Of a stretch of 64,000 nucleotides of DNA, positions 19,216 through 55,426 are shown in pieces (the first letter of the stretch is position 1; the number at the start of each line of letters is the position of its first letter). Source of the stretch: Utricularia gibba. Its lineage: Eukaryota > Streptophyta > Magnoliopsida > Lamiales > Lentibulariaceae. Below the pieces are notes generated by a model. The model was not told the origin of the DNA. It made no database searches and saw only the letters and a program-made list of their open reading frames with translations. The stretch lies in assembly GCA_002189035.1 (NCBI GenBank), contig NEEC01000025.1, positions 372,001 to 436,000 of the forward strand, read 5' to 3'. The translations under genes were made by a program, and so were the position numbers.

Positions 19216-20308
<1,093 letters not shown>

Positions 20309-20380
20309 TCTCAGGGATGCTTCAGTTGCCGGAGAAGACAAGTTGGGTGTAGGTTGGTGGAAGTGGAGTGGCGAAGGGGT

Positions 20381-20388
20381 ATTTATAG
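20381..20388 (-). promoter_or_regulatory. TATA box of CP4
   Basis: TATAAATA on the - strand, 73 bp upstream of the ATG at 20308. Confidence 0.6.
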
Positions 20389-23300
20389 ATGCTCATACCC
20401 AGATCAATTAAAACCCTACGAGAGTAGACATAAGAATTCCTTGATTGCCATTTTCCAAATCATTGAATGGGTCAGCATCGTTCCAGATGTCAAACACAAA
20501 ACCATGGGTTTTAATGGAACCAAATTCTGAGATACCAAACTATTTCCATGAACATACTGTGGGTGTTTCCTTTGCAAATTTCATATTTTAGTATTACCCT
20601 CATCAAGGCATTTAGGCCTCATTTGATTGATAGTTTAAAATTTTCATAGGTTTATGGATCTATATGAAAAATAATGTTGATATCAGAGTTTAGTATATTT
20701 GGATGATAAAATACTTGAAAGAACCATGTGTAGCTCACGAATTAGGAACCTTGTCTTTGAGGATGCAAAAATTGTATAGTATTTTTACTCAAGAAACGAG
20801 CATGTGATTTCTTTTAGACAGTGTATAATTTATAAGTAAAATTTGTAACTCAAAGGTAAAAAAAAATAGCCATTAGGATAGCAGATTTAAGGTATGTTTA
20901 TTTTCGCTTCATTAAAAACGCTTAAAAAATGCTTTTATTGAAGTGATTTTGTTGAAGCAAAAACTGTTTTCAAAATTACTCTAAATTCTTATGAAGCCTT
21001 AAGATCTCATTTTCTTGAAGTGGCCTAGTAGAAAAGAATGAAGCGTTAAATATCGTAGAAAAATAATGTGAGAGAAAAAGAGTATTTTTGAATTAAAAAT
21101 ATTAAAGTGCTTTAAAATTTGATAGAAGCGATTATAAATCTGTTTCAAAAAAAGTTGAAGCGCTTAGAAGTGCTTCAATGTTTCATTTCAAAAAAAAAAA
21201 AATTATTTATGTTTTCAATAAAATCACTTCAAAATCACTTAATTTGAAATAGAAGCGGAATAATCAGACATTTACTTCATTTTCTACCTATGGGCTCTTA
21301 CTCGTGTAGGCTGCTCCATTTTTTCTATCCGTTGGGCCAGTATTAGTTTGCATGTACCATTGGGCTCAATCGTTCATATTTGCCCTAGTTTTTTGGTTTT
21401 TCCTCCATCTTCTTCCTTGTGTTGCTGCTCAAGGTAGAGTTCATGTGCTTCGCACAGTTTCACAAGGAAATAAGGATTATCTCATCACAATTCAACAATA
21501 ATTTGTATTTAATATCTTGAATTAATAGAAATTATAATATTGTCTCAGTGAATTTAATATAAATTTAGTAGTTTCCTAAACTCTCGGTATATTTCTCTGA
21601 GGCATCACTAGTGAGTGATTCATCCATCAAATCTGAGTGGGCAAATAGGGAGGAAAGTGAAAATAAAGTAACTAAGAGAATTAAAAAAATAATTAGCAAG
21701 GACAAAAAAGTCTTTTTAAAGTTGGGTATAAAAATATCTATGCCATGTCTAGGTGCACACATACCCATAGGAAAGGATATTTGGCAGATATTTTTATATC
21801 AGAAATTATAATTTTTCTAAATGTATAATAAACCAACCCTAGTCTGTCACATCAAATGTTTCAGCAAAAAAAAAAAAGAACTATAGAACATTTCAGATAA
21901 GTTGAATAATCTTAATCAGAACTATTTGAAAAAATACAATTTGTGAACTATCAATGGATATGAATGCAATAAATCAATGCTTTTTAAAATTTAAGTTGAT
22001 ATGAATGGATAACTAATTCATTAAATTCTTTAAAAAATTATATAAAATAAGTTTTTTATTCGACTTCATAAGTATACTTAGATATAACTAACTTTTATGT
22101 TAAAAAAATTTACAGATAACAAAAAACATCATATCAAACATCCTCTTAGGGATCATTTTCTTACAAACGATCATTCTTAAGAGCTATGTGGGATGAGTTA
22201 ATACCTGTTGAAAAGCATGGTTTGGTTTTGGGTTCTTTAGTCCACTCTTGGGATATTTTCTCTATTACGCGCTACGAAGCACAGAATTTTGACTATAGGA
22301 ATGGATTTTGGCAGGGAAGAATTCCAGAAGCATTTAAATCTCCACATCACCTTCACCCCATTCTTCATCTCTTAGGGCTTGTCATCAAATCAACCCCAGC
22401 AATAGTTTCTCCACAGGGATATCCTTACAAAAACACGACCATCTGAATAATGGGGTTTAATAAATATTTTTGATGACTGAAGGATCTACGGTGAATCCGT
22501 GCTATTTTTAGATTCACATCTTCGGAAATGTGAATGGGTGGATTTAGGCCAGTTCTACATATGAACATAGTTCTGCTGTTGATAAACTAGCCATGCAATA
22601 TTTACTCTTTGAACGTAGAGCGTGGACCAGCGAATCCAACCTGTCATTAATGTTAAAACATTCTTGACAGCAGGCCGGCTGCTTAGACAGAATGGACTCT
22701 ATGATTAGCACATTAATTTGGGATGTATTAGAAAACCAATTTTTTAGTTTTCAATATAAGGCTTGGTGCCAGTTTGACATTGTATTTTAATGTGTTTGTG
22801 GGATTAATTTGCATAAAAATGAAAATTTTGGTAAAACTCAATATATTTGTAATAAAAAAAAATAGAATATTAGCTATATATCATAACCTTGGCTACCACA
22901 ATTCTGAAGGTTTTTTGATAGTATGTATACAAAATTTATACTCAAGTTTACACATAAATCGTTGTTTAATTAATTATAATATATATAATAGTTTTATATA
23001 TACTCATTTTTTAAGATGATATACATAAATTGAAGTGGAAGCTATTATATCTATACTTAAACATACTAATATTTTACTATCAAGCGACCTATTCATAAGA
23101 TGTCATGATTTGAGCTTGATCCATATTCAAAATGATAGTTCCTACTTTAAGGGGGAATTTAATCTTTATGTGTGTCGTACATGGATTCATATCAAAGAAA
23201 TTTATCCTCATTCTTTCGAATATGATGTTGAACGCCATCTGAGATCACACCACAATGAATTCACGGTCTTGTAACCATGTGAAGCTTTCATAATCTAGGG

Positions 23301-27655: not shown

Positions 27656-28175
27656 TAGGGATGAAAGTTAAAGTCAAAGCCCGTGGGCTGGCCCGGCTCG
27701 GCCCTTAAAAACAAAGAGCTTGGGCTTAGACATTGATGACCCAAAAAATTGTCGGGCTTTCTGGCTCGAATTCCTAAACCCTTAGGGTCGATTGAGCTTC
27801 GGGCCTTAAAGCCCGATGGGCTTAGGGCTAATTTAAAAATAGGATTTTTATATATAATAATTATAATTATTTTTAATTTTGAATAATTTAAATTTATTTT
27901 ATATAAAATATTAATTTTTAGGATAGACAATATGAATTAATAATTTATATAATAATTTAAAATTTTTTCTTTAAATTATTTAAATAATATAAAAATGTAT
28001 ATTAATGTTCAATAATTTTTTAAATTTATTTATTTATTATATGGTAGGCCCGTGGGCCGGCCTAATGAATAATCGGATTAAGGCCATATTAATCATATTT
28101 TTATGTAATCGGGCTTTAACCCGGCCCTCTGAAATAGAGTCGGGCCGGCTCGGCTGGGCCCAACTTTCATCTCTA
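27656..28175. mobile_element. Non-autonomous hAT-type MITE, 520 bp
   Basis: The left end is TAGGGATGAAAGTT and the right end AACTTTCATCTCTA, inverted repeats with one mismatch in 14. Identical octamers CATTTGCC flank it at 27648-27655 and 28176-28183. Terminal repeats starting TAG plus an 8-bp target duplication define hAT transposons. GC-rich GGCCCGGC-type subterminal blocks surround an AT-rich middle. It has no transposase frame, so it can only have moved with help from an autonomous relative. The perfect target duplication suggests a fairly recent insertion. Confidence 0.88.
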
Positions 28176-28183
28176 CATTTGCC

Positions 28184-29798: not shown

Positions 29799-30835
29799 AT
29801 TTTGCTTTCTTGTTTCTTGTGTTGTGGGTACATGCTATTGTTTGATCAAGCGGTCTTATCTACACATATATCCCAGGTGAACGGTATTGCAACCATGCTA
29901 TATTCAGCCATCTGTCTAAAGTTATGCCTTTTATCCACACGTGACTACCTAGAGATTGATGTTGCTGCTTTATTGTACTTCTTGCTGTTAAACATGGGAT
30001 TGTAGTAAACCTACAAGTTTGAGGCATCAGACGAATCCCAGTTGACGATTCTATTAGTGTCTGATGTGAAAAACAAAGCCTTTTCTGTCTGAAACTTGCC
30101 CCTTTGATGATTCCAAGTGCTAATGTAGGAGCCATTGCTACTAGCTTTAGTTCTCATCCTCCATTTTTTGAGCGTCCGATGTGAAAAACAAAGCCTTTTT
30201 CTGTCTGAAACTTGCCCCTTTGATGATTCCAAGTTCTAATGTAGGAGTCAATGCTACCAGCTTTAGTTCTCATGCTCCATGTTTTGTTTCCAGCTCGCGG
30301 CTATGGCTTCGCAGATGCTTATCAATAGTCATGGTGATGCAAAGGTGAATCATCCCCTGGTAGTTGAGCGAAGAAGACGATGATTTATCAACCCACAGGC
30401 ATCTGGGAGGTCTACTTGATCTCTGAAACTAACACTCTTGTTTCATCTTTTTTTTTTTTTTACTTGTTAGATTTGTTAGCATTCACCGGTGACTTGAAAG
30501 GGTTTCTACCTTTTATTTATGCTGTGGATTTCATTTACCCTTTTCGTAGCTTTAGTTGCGTGATTGTGACAGCTGCTGCTGGCTGTTATTTCCAAGAAAG
30601 GGATTGCTACAAAATTAATCGACAAATATTTTTAAATATTAAGCCAATTAGTAAATGATGAGATGGAGACACGTGTTAGGTCGTGAGGATGAGGGCCAAT
30701 AAGGAGGCGCCAGGTGTCCGTGTTAGCAGACGTTCATTTGATCCGGCGGTGTATATGGGCCCGGGTCATATTTGAAGCCCAAGAATTATAAAGCCTGGCA
30801 GGCCCACGTTTCCGGGTTTTGTAACCGCCAACTCC
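29799..30835. other. Trihelix 3' region with a local duplication
   Basis: It holds the 3' UTR or flank of the trihelix gene and a tandem duplication (30059-30286). There is a T run near 30450. I see no further gene before the chimeric pseudogene. Confidence 0.6.
30059..30286 (+). repeat. Tandem direct duplication, ~113-bp unit
   Basis: Unit 1 is 30059-30170 and unit 2 is 30174-30286. Both start GTCYGATGTGAAAAACAAAG and end TTTTG, with only a handful of differences. It lies 260-490 bp downstream of the trihelix stop codon, probably in its 3' UTR or just past it. Confidence 0.85.
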
Positions 30836-31648
30836 GTGGTGGCTTTCTCTGCGGGTGTATCGCATTTGTCCCTCTTGAATGCAGTCGGAAACTTCAGGAA
30901 CCGGTTTTCCTTTCCGGCGGAAACTTGCGCACTCGAGAACTCGCTTGGTTTACGGAAGGGTCTATGCCTTGATCGGCCGTTCTGCATTTCCGTGGCATCC
31001 AGATTCACTGGGATCAAGAAACGAGTTCGGTCGATCGCATGTAATGCCTACGATGCCAAAGGAGCGGAGTCGGCATCATCGGTAGGTCGGAAAGTGAAAA
31101 TTGGCGTCTATTTTGCGATCTTGTGGACTGTGAATGCTGCACGGAATATGTACATCAATAAATCCTTTCATTTCCCCTGGCTCCTTTCCACGCTTTCATC
31201 TGGTAGTCATTCCATACCTTTGGTGCATTTCATTCCGATGTTTATATTGTCTCTCATACGAGAATTTGACTTACAATTGGTTGTCTTTTGGCCAGGTGGG
31301 TCGTTGCACAGCCGAGATAATCTCTAGATACGAGAGATGGATCGAGCATTTCGGCAATGTGTACAAAAACGAAGCTGAGACGAGATGTTCAAAATCTTTA
31401 AGCGCAATGCTAAGTTTATCGACACTTCCAATGCTGCGATGATCTTCAGATACGAGAGATGGATGGAGCGATCCGGAGGTGTGTACAAGAACGAAGCTGA
31501 AAAGGCCAAGAGGTTCGAAATTTTCAAGCGCAATATTGAGTTCATCGACTCTAACAACGCGGCCGGAGAGAATGAGTTCAGAGATCTCACCAACGAGGAG
31601 CCTTGTGGTAGGAATGGGTTAAAGCCGCGTCCAAGTACTGCTGCCTAG
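30836..31648 (+). pseudogene. Chimeric pseudogene: GPT translocator fragments joined to cysteine-protease prodomain fragments
   Basis: 30836 to about 31195 matches exon 1 of the GPT gene at 53795-55426 on the other strand: transit peptide and first membrane helix (RKVKIGVYFAILW, FPWLLSTLSS). The start codon is GTG instead of ATG. Near 31195 it jumps to the last bases of GPT exon 3 (TTTCATCTG), then continues through a recognisable GPT intron 3 (31203-31295, ending TCTTTTGGCCAG) into the first 15-16 bases of exon 4. At 31311 it switches to a C1A prodomain (AEIISRYERWIEHFGNVYKNEAE), repeated in diverged form from about 31434 ([19 protein letters not shown], then the ERFNIN region, to a stop at 31648). 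Retained intron means a DNA-level rearrangement, not a retrocopy. The GPT and protease parts do not stay in one frame. There is no catalytic domain. Not expected to be functional. Confidence 0.88.
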
Positions 31649-32471
31649 TCAGAAAAATTAATGGAATGTGAATTGCTCAACCAGTACTTGATCAAGCATG
31701 ATCCGTGATCATCCACTCGCTTTCTAATTTCCATGATTCTCGATTGGTTTGTTCAAGTTGTTTCAGTATGGTATTTTTACTCTGTTGCAAGTTCTGTTTT
31801 TTAGTGTAGTTCTATTCTGATCATCTTCTTCTTTGTTAGAAGCTTCAATTGTTTGTCCAAATTGAATTGCAGGTCTTCTATTGCATAAGATCAGATCAAA
31901 TGAAGAAAGGGGCTTCGATATAACAAGATTGGAGGACACCCAAGTTGAGATGGAATAACCAGGGAATCAATGTCGTTTCAAAGTGTCACCCACCACTCCT
32001 AACCATCATTCGAACAACCACCCTGATCAGCCGTAGGTAGACAACACTGAATCAAAATCTTTTTGTTTTTTTGTTTTTTATGTGTAAAATGATCATAAAC
32101 AACCGTCAACGCCGTTATCTTGATCCCCACAAGTAAACTTTATCCTAAGTCTAAGAATGAGATTGGTCAACCTCTGCCGTTCGGCTTCAGTCGGATGGAT
32201 TGAGATTAAAGGCCTAGAGGCAAGCCAAGGAAGATTCTTTTTTGTTTTCAACGATGCTGGTTGTTTGAAAAAAAACACAGATGGCATCAATTTGTCCGAG
32301 TGCAACCCAGAGGCTAGCGGAGGAGGATTTTTGATTCTGATGAGAGGGGCTTGTAACTTTTTGTGTGTACTGTGAATCTGAAGCCGTTTTCTCGGACCCC
32401 ATTTCATCTCCGCCGTCAAATTGGAGCTTTTCTATATAAAATCTTATCTTGGGTTAGTGCAGGTGGGATTG
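31649..32471. other. Spacer upstream of the RING-CH gene
   Basis: There is no coding sequence that I can support. The 5' UTR and promoter of the RING-CH gene should lie in the last 200-400 bp. Confidence 0.55.
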
Positions 32472-33130
32472 ATGGAGGAACCCAGTACCGGAGACGAATT
32501 GGGAGCGAGGGAGATTGTTGACAGTGATTCGAAGAAGTCCAGAGAGGAATGCCCATGTGTTACACTAGATGTCGTTGACGGTGGCGAGGACTCCGAGGCG
32601 GCGTGTCGAATTTGCCATCTGAGTGGCAAGGATATTGATCAAGGTGTTGATCAGTTGATGGAGATCGGGTGTGGGTGCAGAGGGGAGCTCGGTGTAGCTC
32701 ATGTCCAGTGCGCCGAGGCCTGGTTCAACGTCAAGGGAAATCTGTGAGTCATCTATATTCCTGCACCCTTCCCAATCCACTGAAATTCGTCAATATGTTT
32801 GATGCAACTTATACATCTGTTTTCTGGGTGCTTTTCTAAGATCAATAGAACAAGCTCCCATAAAAGAGTTATGTTAAAAGATGTGTGAATGGGCTCAACA
32901 GGTGCTGCGAAATCTGTGGAGAAACGGCTAAGAACATCACCGGCACATCTAATGCGTCGTTCATGGAGGCTTGGAACGACGGACCTGATGCCGGTGTGGC
33001 CACGCTAGCCCTGTCCGGTGGCGCCGCCCGGCAAAGATGGCTGCAAGGAAAGTACATATGTAATCTTTTGCTGGTTTTGCTGGTGATTTTATTCATTTTC
33101 CCTTGGTTTTTTCGTGGAAATTTGTTCTAA
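32472..33130 (+). CDS. RING-CH (RINGv) zinc-finger protein, probable membrane E3 ligase
   Basis: Two exons, 32472-32743 and 32902-33130, give 166 residues. The RING-variant domain has the C4HC3 order: CRICH, then CGC, HVQCAEAWF and CEICG. The intron falls between the His/Cys and final Cys pairs (KGN-L-CCEICG). A C-terminal hydrophobic segment (CNLLLVLLVILFIFPWFF) should anchor it in a membrane. The family ubiquitinates membrane proteins; the substrate is unknown. The start is the ATG at 32472, because the longer frame has no ATG. It converges with the Rho-N gene, with the stops 149 bp apart. Confidence 0.9.
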
Positions 33131-33279
33131 AAAGTCATATTCCTGTACTTTGCCATACTATGCAAATCCGAAGTCAAATTCTTGTACTTTGCCAAATGAA
33201 TAACAATCACTAAAGTTTGTGGCTAATTTTTAATAGTTGACAAAATGGCTTGAGGTTACAAGGATAACCTGCAATCTTC

Positions 33280-34262
33280 TCACTTGGCAAAGAGCTCAAG
33301 AAGGTCAGATTTCCTCAGCCTTGAGTACCCCTTGATTCCTCTCAATTTGGCCTCTTCTTTTAGCTGCTGAAGAGTCATTTCTTCAAATTTGAGAGTTTGA
33401 GCACTGTTCTCGTCAGCCTCAATCACAGGTTCCTCTTCTTGAGCCAAATTGGGTGTACTAACTTCCATTTTAGTACTTCTAGGAATGGGTGATCTTCTAG
33501 AGAAGTTTGATGGAGGTCTTGTTGGTGTTGAATTCTGTGTGCCATCTTCATCGTTCTTAAATGTGTCCTTTGACTTGTACCCCTTTCCACTCGAAGCGTT
33601 CCTGAACAATCAACGGAAAACAGAGTGAAAATCTTTGGGGGATTCCACAACAAGAACGGAGTTTGAGCAGAACCTCTTTTTGTGTTGAGTGCTTCGATGA
33701 GTGATTCTGCAGAAGGGGCGTTATTGTTGCCATTGAGCTTCATGTTTCTCTTCCTGGAACTGGGAGTTTCTCCTTTAGAAATGGAAGATTGTATTCTCTT
33801 GAATAGATCAAGAATCGCTTCCTTGTTAGGTGATAAAGAGGATTTCCGGCGAGAGTCATCTTCCGGCAAGTCTACTTCCGCCGTTACTCTTCCGCGGTTT
33901 GAATGAGGAGGTGCTCGGCTTCGAATCGAAGGGATTCGTGCAATTTCTGCCAAATTGAACAAGCGCTGCATCAAAAATTCATGATCTCAGCCACAATGTG
34001 TCGCCCTAATCCCCTTCTTTCACGAAGACCTCAAATTTGAATAAAAAATCCCGAAATCAGTAAGCCCTAAGTATGGAATATTGAAATCCCAACTTCATAC
34101 GCAGGGATGAACATAGCCTGGAGATTGAATGACGATTGCAGCGGCGAAAAGATGAATACCTGATGCAGGAACAAAAGGCCTCTGAGAAATAATGGATCTG
34201 GGCAGCGACGATAATGTACGGGCTTGCAGAAATGACTGTGAAGAGACGAAAAGTTCAGCCAT
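33280..34262 (-). CDS. Rho-N/SAP-like domain protein (RHON1/BP-73-like), one-base deficit at exon 2 end
   Basis: Three exons: 34160-34262, 33674-33946 and 33280-33601. Exon 1 starts MAELFVSSQSFLQARTLSS, a plausible plastid transit peptide. Exon 2 holds EAILDLFKRIQSSISKGE, typical of plant Rho-N proteins. Exon 3 ends with a Rho-N/SAP-like module (EEMTLQQLKEEAKLRGIKGYS and RKSDLLELF). Arabidopsis RHON1 binds plastid RNA and helps RNase E; function here is inferred. The exon 2/3 junction does not close: exon 2 is one base short of the phase needed by exon 3. An extra A in the five-A run (complement of 33677-33681) would give ALNTKKRNASSGK. Alternative GT donors leave introns of under 60 bp, so I favour a missing base. 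Corrected length is 232 residues, short for the family. Confidence 0.78.
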
Positions 34263-34610
34263 TTGATTCCTCTCGCAGATTCAGAAAGCCACAAGGCAGA
34301 CGAACGGAAGCGTTTCTTGGTATATCCTGTCGTCAAGCATCTCTCTCTCCACGTCAGGCCCTCAACTTCAGATAATCTGGATTTAAAAGAAATTATAAAA
34401 AAGGTACAAAAAAAAGACAAGATCAGGGCTTCTTGTGGATCAAAAACGTGGCGTAGTTTTTCCCTTGCAGACTAGAAGTGTGAGTATTTCCCACGTTCAA
34501 ATGGGCATCCTGGTGTGGGAGATGGTGAGAAGAGGTGGGGTTCCTTGCGGAGGGAAAGAGATGCAGATGCTAGAATTGGATATAAACTAATTCTGAGTAA
34601 CTTCAACAAC
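34263..34610. other. Promoter region of the Rho-N gene and 5' flank of tRNA-Trp
   Basis: There is no coding sequence. A CAACAAC motif lies just before the tRNA (34604-34610), resembling the CAA initiation motif of plant tRNA genes. Confidence 0.5.
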
Positions 34611-34682
34611 GGATCCGTGGCGCAATGGTAGCGCGTCTGACTCCAGATCAGAAGGTTGCGTGTTCGATTCACGTCGGGTTCA
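34611..34682 (+). tRNA. tRNA-Trp (CCA)
   Basis: A 72-base cloverleaf. The acceptor stem GGATCCG (34611-34617) pairs with CGGGTTC (34675-34681), with discriminator A at 34682. The D-arm is around GCGCAATGGTAGCGC. The anticodon stem TCTGA/TCAGA holds CCA at 34643-34645. The T-arm has GTTCGATTC. It has no intron. The internal A and B boxes are present, so it looks functional. Confidence 0.97.
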
Positions 34683-34711
34683 AACCTCCCGAAAGATTGG
34701 ATCCCTAATCC

Positions 34712-34716
34712 TTTTT
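34712..34716 (+). terminator. RNA polymerase III terminator of tRNA-Trp
   Basis: TTTTT 30 bp past the tRNA 3' end, the usual Pol III stop signal. Confidence 0.7.
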
Positions 34717-34893
34717 AGATTAATTCATTTTTTATCAAACTGGTTCAATCATTCTTTGGAACGCCCCTAATATACGAGATCAGTGGCTAAACTTTCTTAT
34801 GACGTGCAACATATAAAGGTATACAGAGAAGGAACCGCTATCACAACCAACCAACAACTTCTATGAAGAAAAGGAACGCAATGCAACTCCCAA

Positions 34894-53794: not shown

Positions 53795-55426
53795 TCACCG
53801 CTTAGCCTGCGGACACAAGAGTTCGGGTCTCAATATCAGGGCTGTAACCGGGTCAAATCCGGGTCTAGGACTCTGTGAAGGAAGCGTACAAACCTGGGAG
53901 TAGAGGAAGGTGCCAGAGATGGCAATAGCAGCACCAAGAGCGTTGATGGGCTGTAGAGGCGTGTGGAAAACTATGATGGAGGCGACAATGACAGAAATCC
54001 TCTTCATCGTGTTCCCGATGCTGAATGTTAGTGGAGAGATCTCGTTCAGAGACATGTAAGAGACTTGGTTGTACAGATGGTAGAATACGCTCTGTGCAAC
54101 GACCCACCTGGCCAAAAGACATGGAATTGTAAGGCAAATTGTTGTATAAGGATAGGAATGAGATGTGTCAAAGGTGTAACATGGTTACCAGATGAAATTT
54201 GGACCGATTTGGGCGACTGCCTTTTGCCACCCGAGTGCCCAGAGTTGAGGTCCCTCCATGGCTATTGCAAATGGAGTGAGAATCAAGAGGGAAAGGATTG
54301 AGAGGCAAGCGTAGTAGTTCAATCCACCAACTGATTTCCCTTCCATGCCTTTTTTTGAGAATATGTTTCTGAAGACGAACGCCAGGTTTGAAATCATGGC
54401 TCCCATGAAACCTGCACAGAAATATCAGTTTCAAGCAGAAAATGCAACAACAGGGAAGCATACAAGGAAATTGTGCTTCTCTATAGCTACAATAAAACAG
54501 GAACTTGACGTATAGTTGATCATCAACTCTGATATGAAAAAAATGGTATATGCAAAGGAAAGAATTGCACTAGAATTCTCAAATCATTGTAAACCCAAGA
54601 CCAGTTTCGAATCATCAGTAAATATGCGGAACTAACCAGTGAGATTGAAGTTAAGCTCAGTAAGAGCAGACAGCGCACAGCCTCCAATTATCGGCATCAG
54701 GGATAAGTACACCGGCAGGGGGAAACTTTCTCCGAGCAGAAATCTGGAAACCAGAACGCTGAAAGCTGGTTCACTGCTCTTGATTATATGAGTGAACGAA
54801 ACCGCAACTTTGGACATGCTAATCGTCGCCGCAACATGCCCAATCGTGTGCGCCAGAGCAACCTAAGCAGCATTTCAACAAACAGTAGGTAAACAAACTA
54901 GCCACACCGCCATCACGGCAAAAATTTATGGTATTTACCGGTAACAGAGACTTCCAGAAATTAACATCAGTCTCTGGAACTTCAGCAATCCTAATCGCCC
55001 AAGAAACCAACATGATCAAGGAACCGGCGGCCAGAGAAAGCGTGGAAGTGAGCCAGGGGAAAGGAAATACATTGAGAACTTTCTTGTTGTATATATTGAA
55101 CACAACATTGAGAGCCCACCAAGTGGCAAAATAAATGCCAATTTTCACCCTTTGAGCTACTCCTTCATTCAACTCCAAATTCAGCGGTACAGATTCAGCC
55201 CCCGAGCATCGTAGGCATTACATTCGATCGATGGCACTCGGTTCTTGATCCCACCAAATCCGAATCCAGTGGATATGTACAACGGCCGATCAAGGCGCAG
55301 GGCCTTCCCAGACCGATGCGAGATCTCGAGCGCACAACCTTCCGCCGGAAAGAGAACCGGCTTCGTGAAGTTTCCGGCAGCATTCAAGGCGGCGAAACAC
55401 GACCCCTGCGCAGAGAAAGCCGCCAT
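53795..55426 (-). CDS. GPT: Glucose-6-phosphate/phosphate translocator, plastid; one-base deficit in exon 1
   Basis: Inner-envelope antiporter bringing glucose 6-phosphate into plastids in exchange for phosphate. Exons: 54939-55426, 54637-54862, 54189-54411, 53894-54107 and a 12-bp last exon 53795-53806 (AKR-stop), an unusually small terminal exon that closes in phase. Corrected length is 387 residues. A transit peptide of about 75 residues precedes the TPT domain: RVKIGIYFATWWALNVVFNIYNKK, split here as RVKIGIYFATWW and NVVFNIYNKK, then FTHIIKSSEPAFSVLVSRFLLGE and FHTPLQPINALGAAIAISG. In exon 1 the frame breaks at a five-G run (complement of 55199-55203): NAYDARG is followed by LNLYR-stop, while AESVPLNLELNEG lies in the next frame. 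One more G restores it, and the pseudogene copy at 31061-31071 indeed reads NAYDAKGAES. Confidence 0.9.

Follow-up and report, generated by a model that had tools for sequence, protein, structure and literature searches.

A probable non-processed chimeric pseudogene of a plastid sugar-phosphate transporter and papain-type protease prodomains in Utricularia gibba

We have analysed a window of 64,000 nucleotides of the Utricularia gibba genome (bases 372001-436000 of the contig labelled C480), and related sequences were searched for in the whole assembly (100.09 Mb, 516 contigs). At 30836-31648 there is a composite relic of about 0.8 kb, in which a fragment of a gene for the glucose-6-phosphate/phosphate translocator (GPT), a plastid sugar-phosphate transporter, is followed in the same orientation by protease prodomain sequence; homology to two unrelated functional gene families within this one stretch is significant. 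When 30300-32500 was compared with the window itself, 30837-31203 matched 55425-55031, 31194-31311 matched 54197-54092, and the protease matches started from 31311. The following features were distinguished:

30836-31197, plus strand: remains of GPT exon 1, coding for the transit peptide and the start of the mature protein, aligned to 55426-55036 of the minus strand
31194-31197, plus strand: first deletion junction, TTTC, present in the GPT gene both in exon 1 (55039-55036) and at the end of exon 3 (54197-54194)
31203-31295, plus strand: relic of GPT intron 3 with GT and AG kept, homologous to GPT 54188-54108
31296-31311, plus strand: first 16 bases of GPT exon 4, 16 of 16 identical to 54107-54092
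31325-31327, plus strand: TAG ending the GPT frame just past the fusion, reached whether spliced or unspliced
31311-31437, plus strand: prodomain copy A, 77% identical to its best match, the gene at 19.2-20.4 kb
about 31431-31646, plus strand: prodomain copy B (I29, Pfam PF08246), 82% to the gene at 19.2-20.4 kb
31385-31649, plus strand: open reading frame of 87 amino acids with ATG, running from the last part of copy A through the whole of copy B, with an I29 match and the ERFNIN and GNFD residues kept
31708-31856, plus strand: degenerate tail of a third sequence, matching C321:1694096-1694233
30546-34892, no strand: interval that has no equivalent on C375, the homeologous contig
19216-20431, minus strand: cysteine-protease gene, the nearest to both prodomain copies by pairwise identity
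53790-55426, minus strand: intact GPT gene of five exons, translating to the full translocator save one missing G

The exon 1 relic (30837-31203) aligned to the GPT gene (55425-55031) with an E value of 2e-54, and 79% of the ungapped sites were identical. Homology begins at the start codon, which is changed from ATG to GTG at 30836, and the 5' flank of the GPT gene is not matched. At the first junction 842 bp are missing (55039 to 54197), comprising the rest of exon 1, introns 1 and 2, exon 2 and most of exon 3, the last 5 bases of which are the remnant of this exon in the relic. Intron 3 measures 93 bp in the relic and 81 bp in the intact gene. The original prediction had described the GTG-started exon 1, the jump within TTTC, intron 3 and a few bases of exon 4, and each of them was recovered in its place; it had also made itself dependent on a match of 31203-31311 to GPT intron 3 and exon 4, and this alignment is significant, with a score of 109.5 as opposed to at most 42.5 in 500 shuffles.

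Since intron 3 is retained with both splice sites, the copy is read as non-processed and a retrocopy is excluded, in agreement with the proposal of a chimeric pseudogene, composed of GPT and cysteine-protease sequence, that is not a retrocopy. No poly(A) was seen at 31650 on reading of the sequence. The assembly contains no closer GPT source: the two other GPT loci, on C3 and C414, have no DNA similarity to the relic in the transit peptide, and the relic is therefore grouped with the GPT gene of the window. In that gene one G is missing from the G run at 55199-55203, which causes a frameshift in exon 1, and the GPT paralogue on C3 is split over two frames near the WW motif; this suggests residual homopolymer errors of the assembly rather than real lesions.

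These probable indel errors in a long-read contig speak for an assembly misjoin as the source of the composite. The pieces of the relic are, however, unique, with an identity of 70-82% to the closest relatives in the genome, and since the assembly holds no match to the relic above about 82%, a misjoin could not have been stitched from the present copies; furthermore, the prodomain copies and the GPT part are similarly diverged. We regard a misjoin as extremely improbable.

The switch to a cysteine-protease prodomain that had been placed at 31311 was confirmed, the protease being of papain type and the domain I29; at this fusion point the GPT and protease sequences have 1 base in common. In copy A the frame is shifted by the loss of 4 bp near 31379. 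The Pfam I29 match over copy B reaches 43.9 bits (E 2.9e-11), and 18 bp are deleted in frame between ERFNIN and GNFD. The two copies are offset by 122-126 bp and their mutual junction falls within about 31430-31437. A tree that included 18 prodomains of the window and C375 placed them as sisters (support 98/93) with no close donor, and they have four states in common that are present in at most one other gene; no closer protease source was found elsewhere in the assembly. The doubling may have arisen either by in-place duplication of one copy or by a deletion that fused two sister genes. The differences between A and B are mildly biased towards silent changes (P 0.02-0.06), hinting at constraint after their split; this leans towards two once-separate sister genes fused by deletion, and would also fit a tandem duplication that remained coding for a while. 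Cysteine proteases are enriched in tandem in U. gibba (PMC8333044, PMC10663240, PMC6982007). The homeologous cluster at C375:1430000-1492700 has at least 12 prodomain-bearing copies as compared with six in the window, and contains near-identical, recent tandem sets (e.g. at 1444, 1448, 1453 and 1459 kb).

Beyond the prodomains, the tail at 31708-31856 is 73% identical to its counterpart on C321, with a local alignment score of 198 and a shuffled maximum of 104. The counterpart consists of the end of an open frame of 53 amino acids and the sequence downstream of it. The tail has no Pfam match, and no further copy besides that on C321 was found genome-wide. The frame on C321 (1694003-1694155; L028:5507-5659) is an orphan terminal frame beside an anthranilate phosphoribosyltransferase-like gene, itself without Pfam match, and its end is source-like sequence for the tail.

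The GPT part has decayed. Reading upstream from 30836, no ATG is met in frame before the TGA at 30773. Relative to the GPT gene, dN/dS of the exon 1 relic is 0.77 (0.48-1.20), with dS 0.43 and dN 0.33. When invariant positions were defined from three GPTs (those of the window, C3 and C414), 14 of the 33 in the mature part were found altered by a count made by eye (11 substitutions, 3 deletions). It counts against drift that all indels of the exon 1 relic preserve the frame. The exon 1 frame is still open, but a frame of this length stays open in about 10% of neutral simulations, so its openness is no evidence of function, and the open frame of 163 codons was rejected as a sign of function. Disabling lesions are combined with relaxed constraint, as in pseudogenes (start loss, the TAG, a frameshift, dN/dS of 0.77 and loss of invariant residues). 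Within an explanation that we hold to be likely as a whole, the relic drifted without selection on its transporter part. The suggestion that such a junction is raw material for new genes found no support here, the start codon being gone, the stop early and the transporter residues eroded.

The sole functional possibility left for the locus is the 87-amino-acid frame, which might be a living gene whose product, an I29 propeptide on its own, would inhibit the papain-type proteases of the neighbouring array; it would be a newly born free inhibitor, both derived from and acting on the adjacent carnivory-associated proteases. It holds an I29 domain in an ATG-started frame, six residues shorter than its relatives, and the strength of the Pfam match (E 2.9e-11), the retained ERFNIN and GNFD residues, and the 5 silent and 5 replacement changes derived in copy B are in favour of such a gene, as is the ability of plant propeptides, when isolated, to inhibit cathepsin L with Ki values in the nanomolar range (PMC6010012). 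Against it, inspection of the frame revealed no signal peptide, which the target proteases seem to possess; six residues are gone between ERFNIN and GNFD; neither copy A nor the upstream frame is intact; and the silent/replacement balance between copy B and W20 (P 0.03-0.10) is compatible with drift. Nothing beyond the open frame favours a product, and we consider this role most unlikely.

As to the age of the GPT copy, the intron 3 relic differs from GPT intron 3 by K 0.28 (0.17-0.44), and homeologous pairs gave dS values of 0.52 (trihelix), 0.48 (HSF-like) and 0.88 (aconitase exon). Because the dS of 0.43 is near this range of 0.48-0.88, the copy would date from about the time of the last genome duplication. 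A GPT counterpart was not found on the homeologous contig C375. The local duplication of the GPT piece that had been assumed is consequently not established: with a divergence like that of genome-duplication pairs and no GPT gene on C375, the piece could equally be a displaced duplicate from the genome duplication or a local one.

The surroundings of the relic were compared with the same contig. C375 matches the window up to 30545 (C375:1497846) and resumes from 34893 (C375:2082046), with about 584 kb between these points; the protease cluster and the trihelix gene are also present on it, to the left of the gap. Genes sampled near both ends of the 584-kb block have counterparts on C142, where they lie only 29 kb apart. 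The presence of about 584 kb on C375 as against 4.3 kb in the window points to a large rearrangement, presumably after the genome duplication, which, given the C142 arrangement, may have gone in either direction. C375 was unusable as an empty-site comparison, as synteny is interrupted there by the ~584 kb. Near the edge of the gap, the two homeologs share an 88-bp sequence (34606-34693 in the window, C375:2080438-2080526) at 99% identity, whereas the surrounding sequence is much less alike. Matches of 91-98% are also present on C505 and C402, and the sequence has the appearance of a young small mobile element on both sides. At 28000-28177, near the trihelix gene, lies a repeat that is dispersed over the genome, with about 35 matches of 67-94% identity.

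The position of the relic inside the interval of the synteny break brings up a different origin, namely a single repair event, in which short stretches copied from genes in the vicinity would have filled a break at the synteny junction (filler DNA, template switching). The two sources are no more than 25 kb away, all pieces are of similar divergence, and mosaic filler from nearby sites has been documented in the maize p2/p1 fusion gene (PMC2686159). However, the order and orientation of the sources are preserved, the pieces (100-370 bp) are longer than reported fillers (1-131 bp among the examples of PMC2686159), and the sisterhood of copies A and B is more easily obtained by duplication or by deletion between tandem genes. 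A filler patch is the main rival to serial deletion, and on balance an unlikely one.

Several gene fragments lying together with an intron have the usual look of transposon cargo, and their collection by a gene-capturing element (Pack-type DNA element or Helitron) was likewise weighed. The inverted repeats are limited to a 12-bp chance pair, the composite and its flanks are single copy in 100 Mb, and both nearest sources are local, all of which argues against capture; the 813-bp junction sequence occurs exactly once in the 100-Mb assembly. Terminal inverted repeats, a target-site duplication and multiple copies were not found at the locus, Helitron ends having not been systematically scanned. 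Capture by a transposon therefore has very little probability.

Serial deletions by end joining are, in our view, the likely origin of the locus. The pieces have one orientation and follow the 5'-3' order of their source genes, as expected of deletion products, and the junction microhomology amounts to 4 bp and 1 bp only; kept order and orientation together with 4- and 1-base junctions are the trace that end-joining deletions would be expected to leave. The ancestral state may have been a second GPT copy and one or two protease gene copies, arranged head to tail and followed by the third gene; this GPT-protease-protease array is a reconstruction from the U. gibba assembly. Repair of a double-strand break by end joining would have removed the GPT interior through the TTTC microhomology, another deletion the rest of GPT together with the start of the protease gene (1 bp in common), another the body between the two protease prodomains, and another everything from the second prodomain to the third sequence. 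The pieces, their order, orientation, junctions, decay and approximate age having been described above, we infer separate deletions as the origin of the junctions, as well as the order of these deletions and the absence of a product. The genome of U. gibba, about 100 Mb in size, has gone through at least two genome duplications of recent date and has shrunk by deletion (PMC8333044, PMC10663240, PMC6982007).

The internal deletion and the fusion of the original prediction are thus borne out by the 842 bp lost via TTTC and the protease switch at 31311; the doubled prodomain, the third tail at 31708-31856 and the location inside a synteny gap go beyond it. The locus is probably an old, decayed, non-processed chimeric pseudogene, an already known kind of object. 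It is a legible example of the erosion of a shrinking polyploid genome, in which two unrelated genes were fused and the junctions can be resolved to a few bases; apart from this clear anatomy it is ordinary and adds little that is new on mechanism, and it would gain weight only if the free I29 frame proved to be expressed.

In comparison with known systems, the 87-amino-acid frame, as an open frame with I29 only, resembles the stand-alone I29 inhibitors CTLA-2alpha, crammer and BCPI (PMC4089206) and, as an I29 domain only, the recombinant Calotropis propeptides (PMC6010012), a resemblance of sequence. With papain-like cysteine protease genes (the array of the window and C375) the relic has the I29 prodomain (PF08246), ERFNIN and GNFD in common; unlike them it has neither signal peptide nor catalytic domain, and carries the prodomain twice. 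With plant GPT genes it has exon 1, intron 3, the start of exon 4 and the exon-intron structure in common; unlike them it has lost most of the gene, the start codon and invariant residues. The maize p2/p1 gene (PMC2686159) joined members of one family, with a 50-bp filler and the gene structure kept, whereas the present locus joins unrelated families and is far decayed; in both, two neighbouring genes were fused at non-homologous points with little shared sequence, and the introns were kept.
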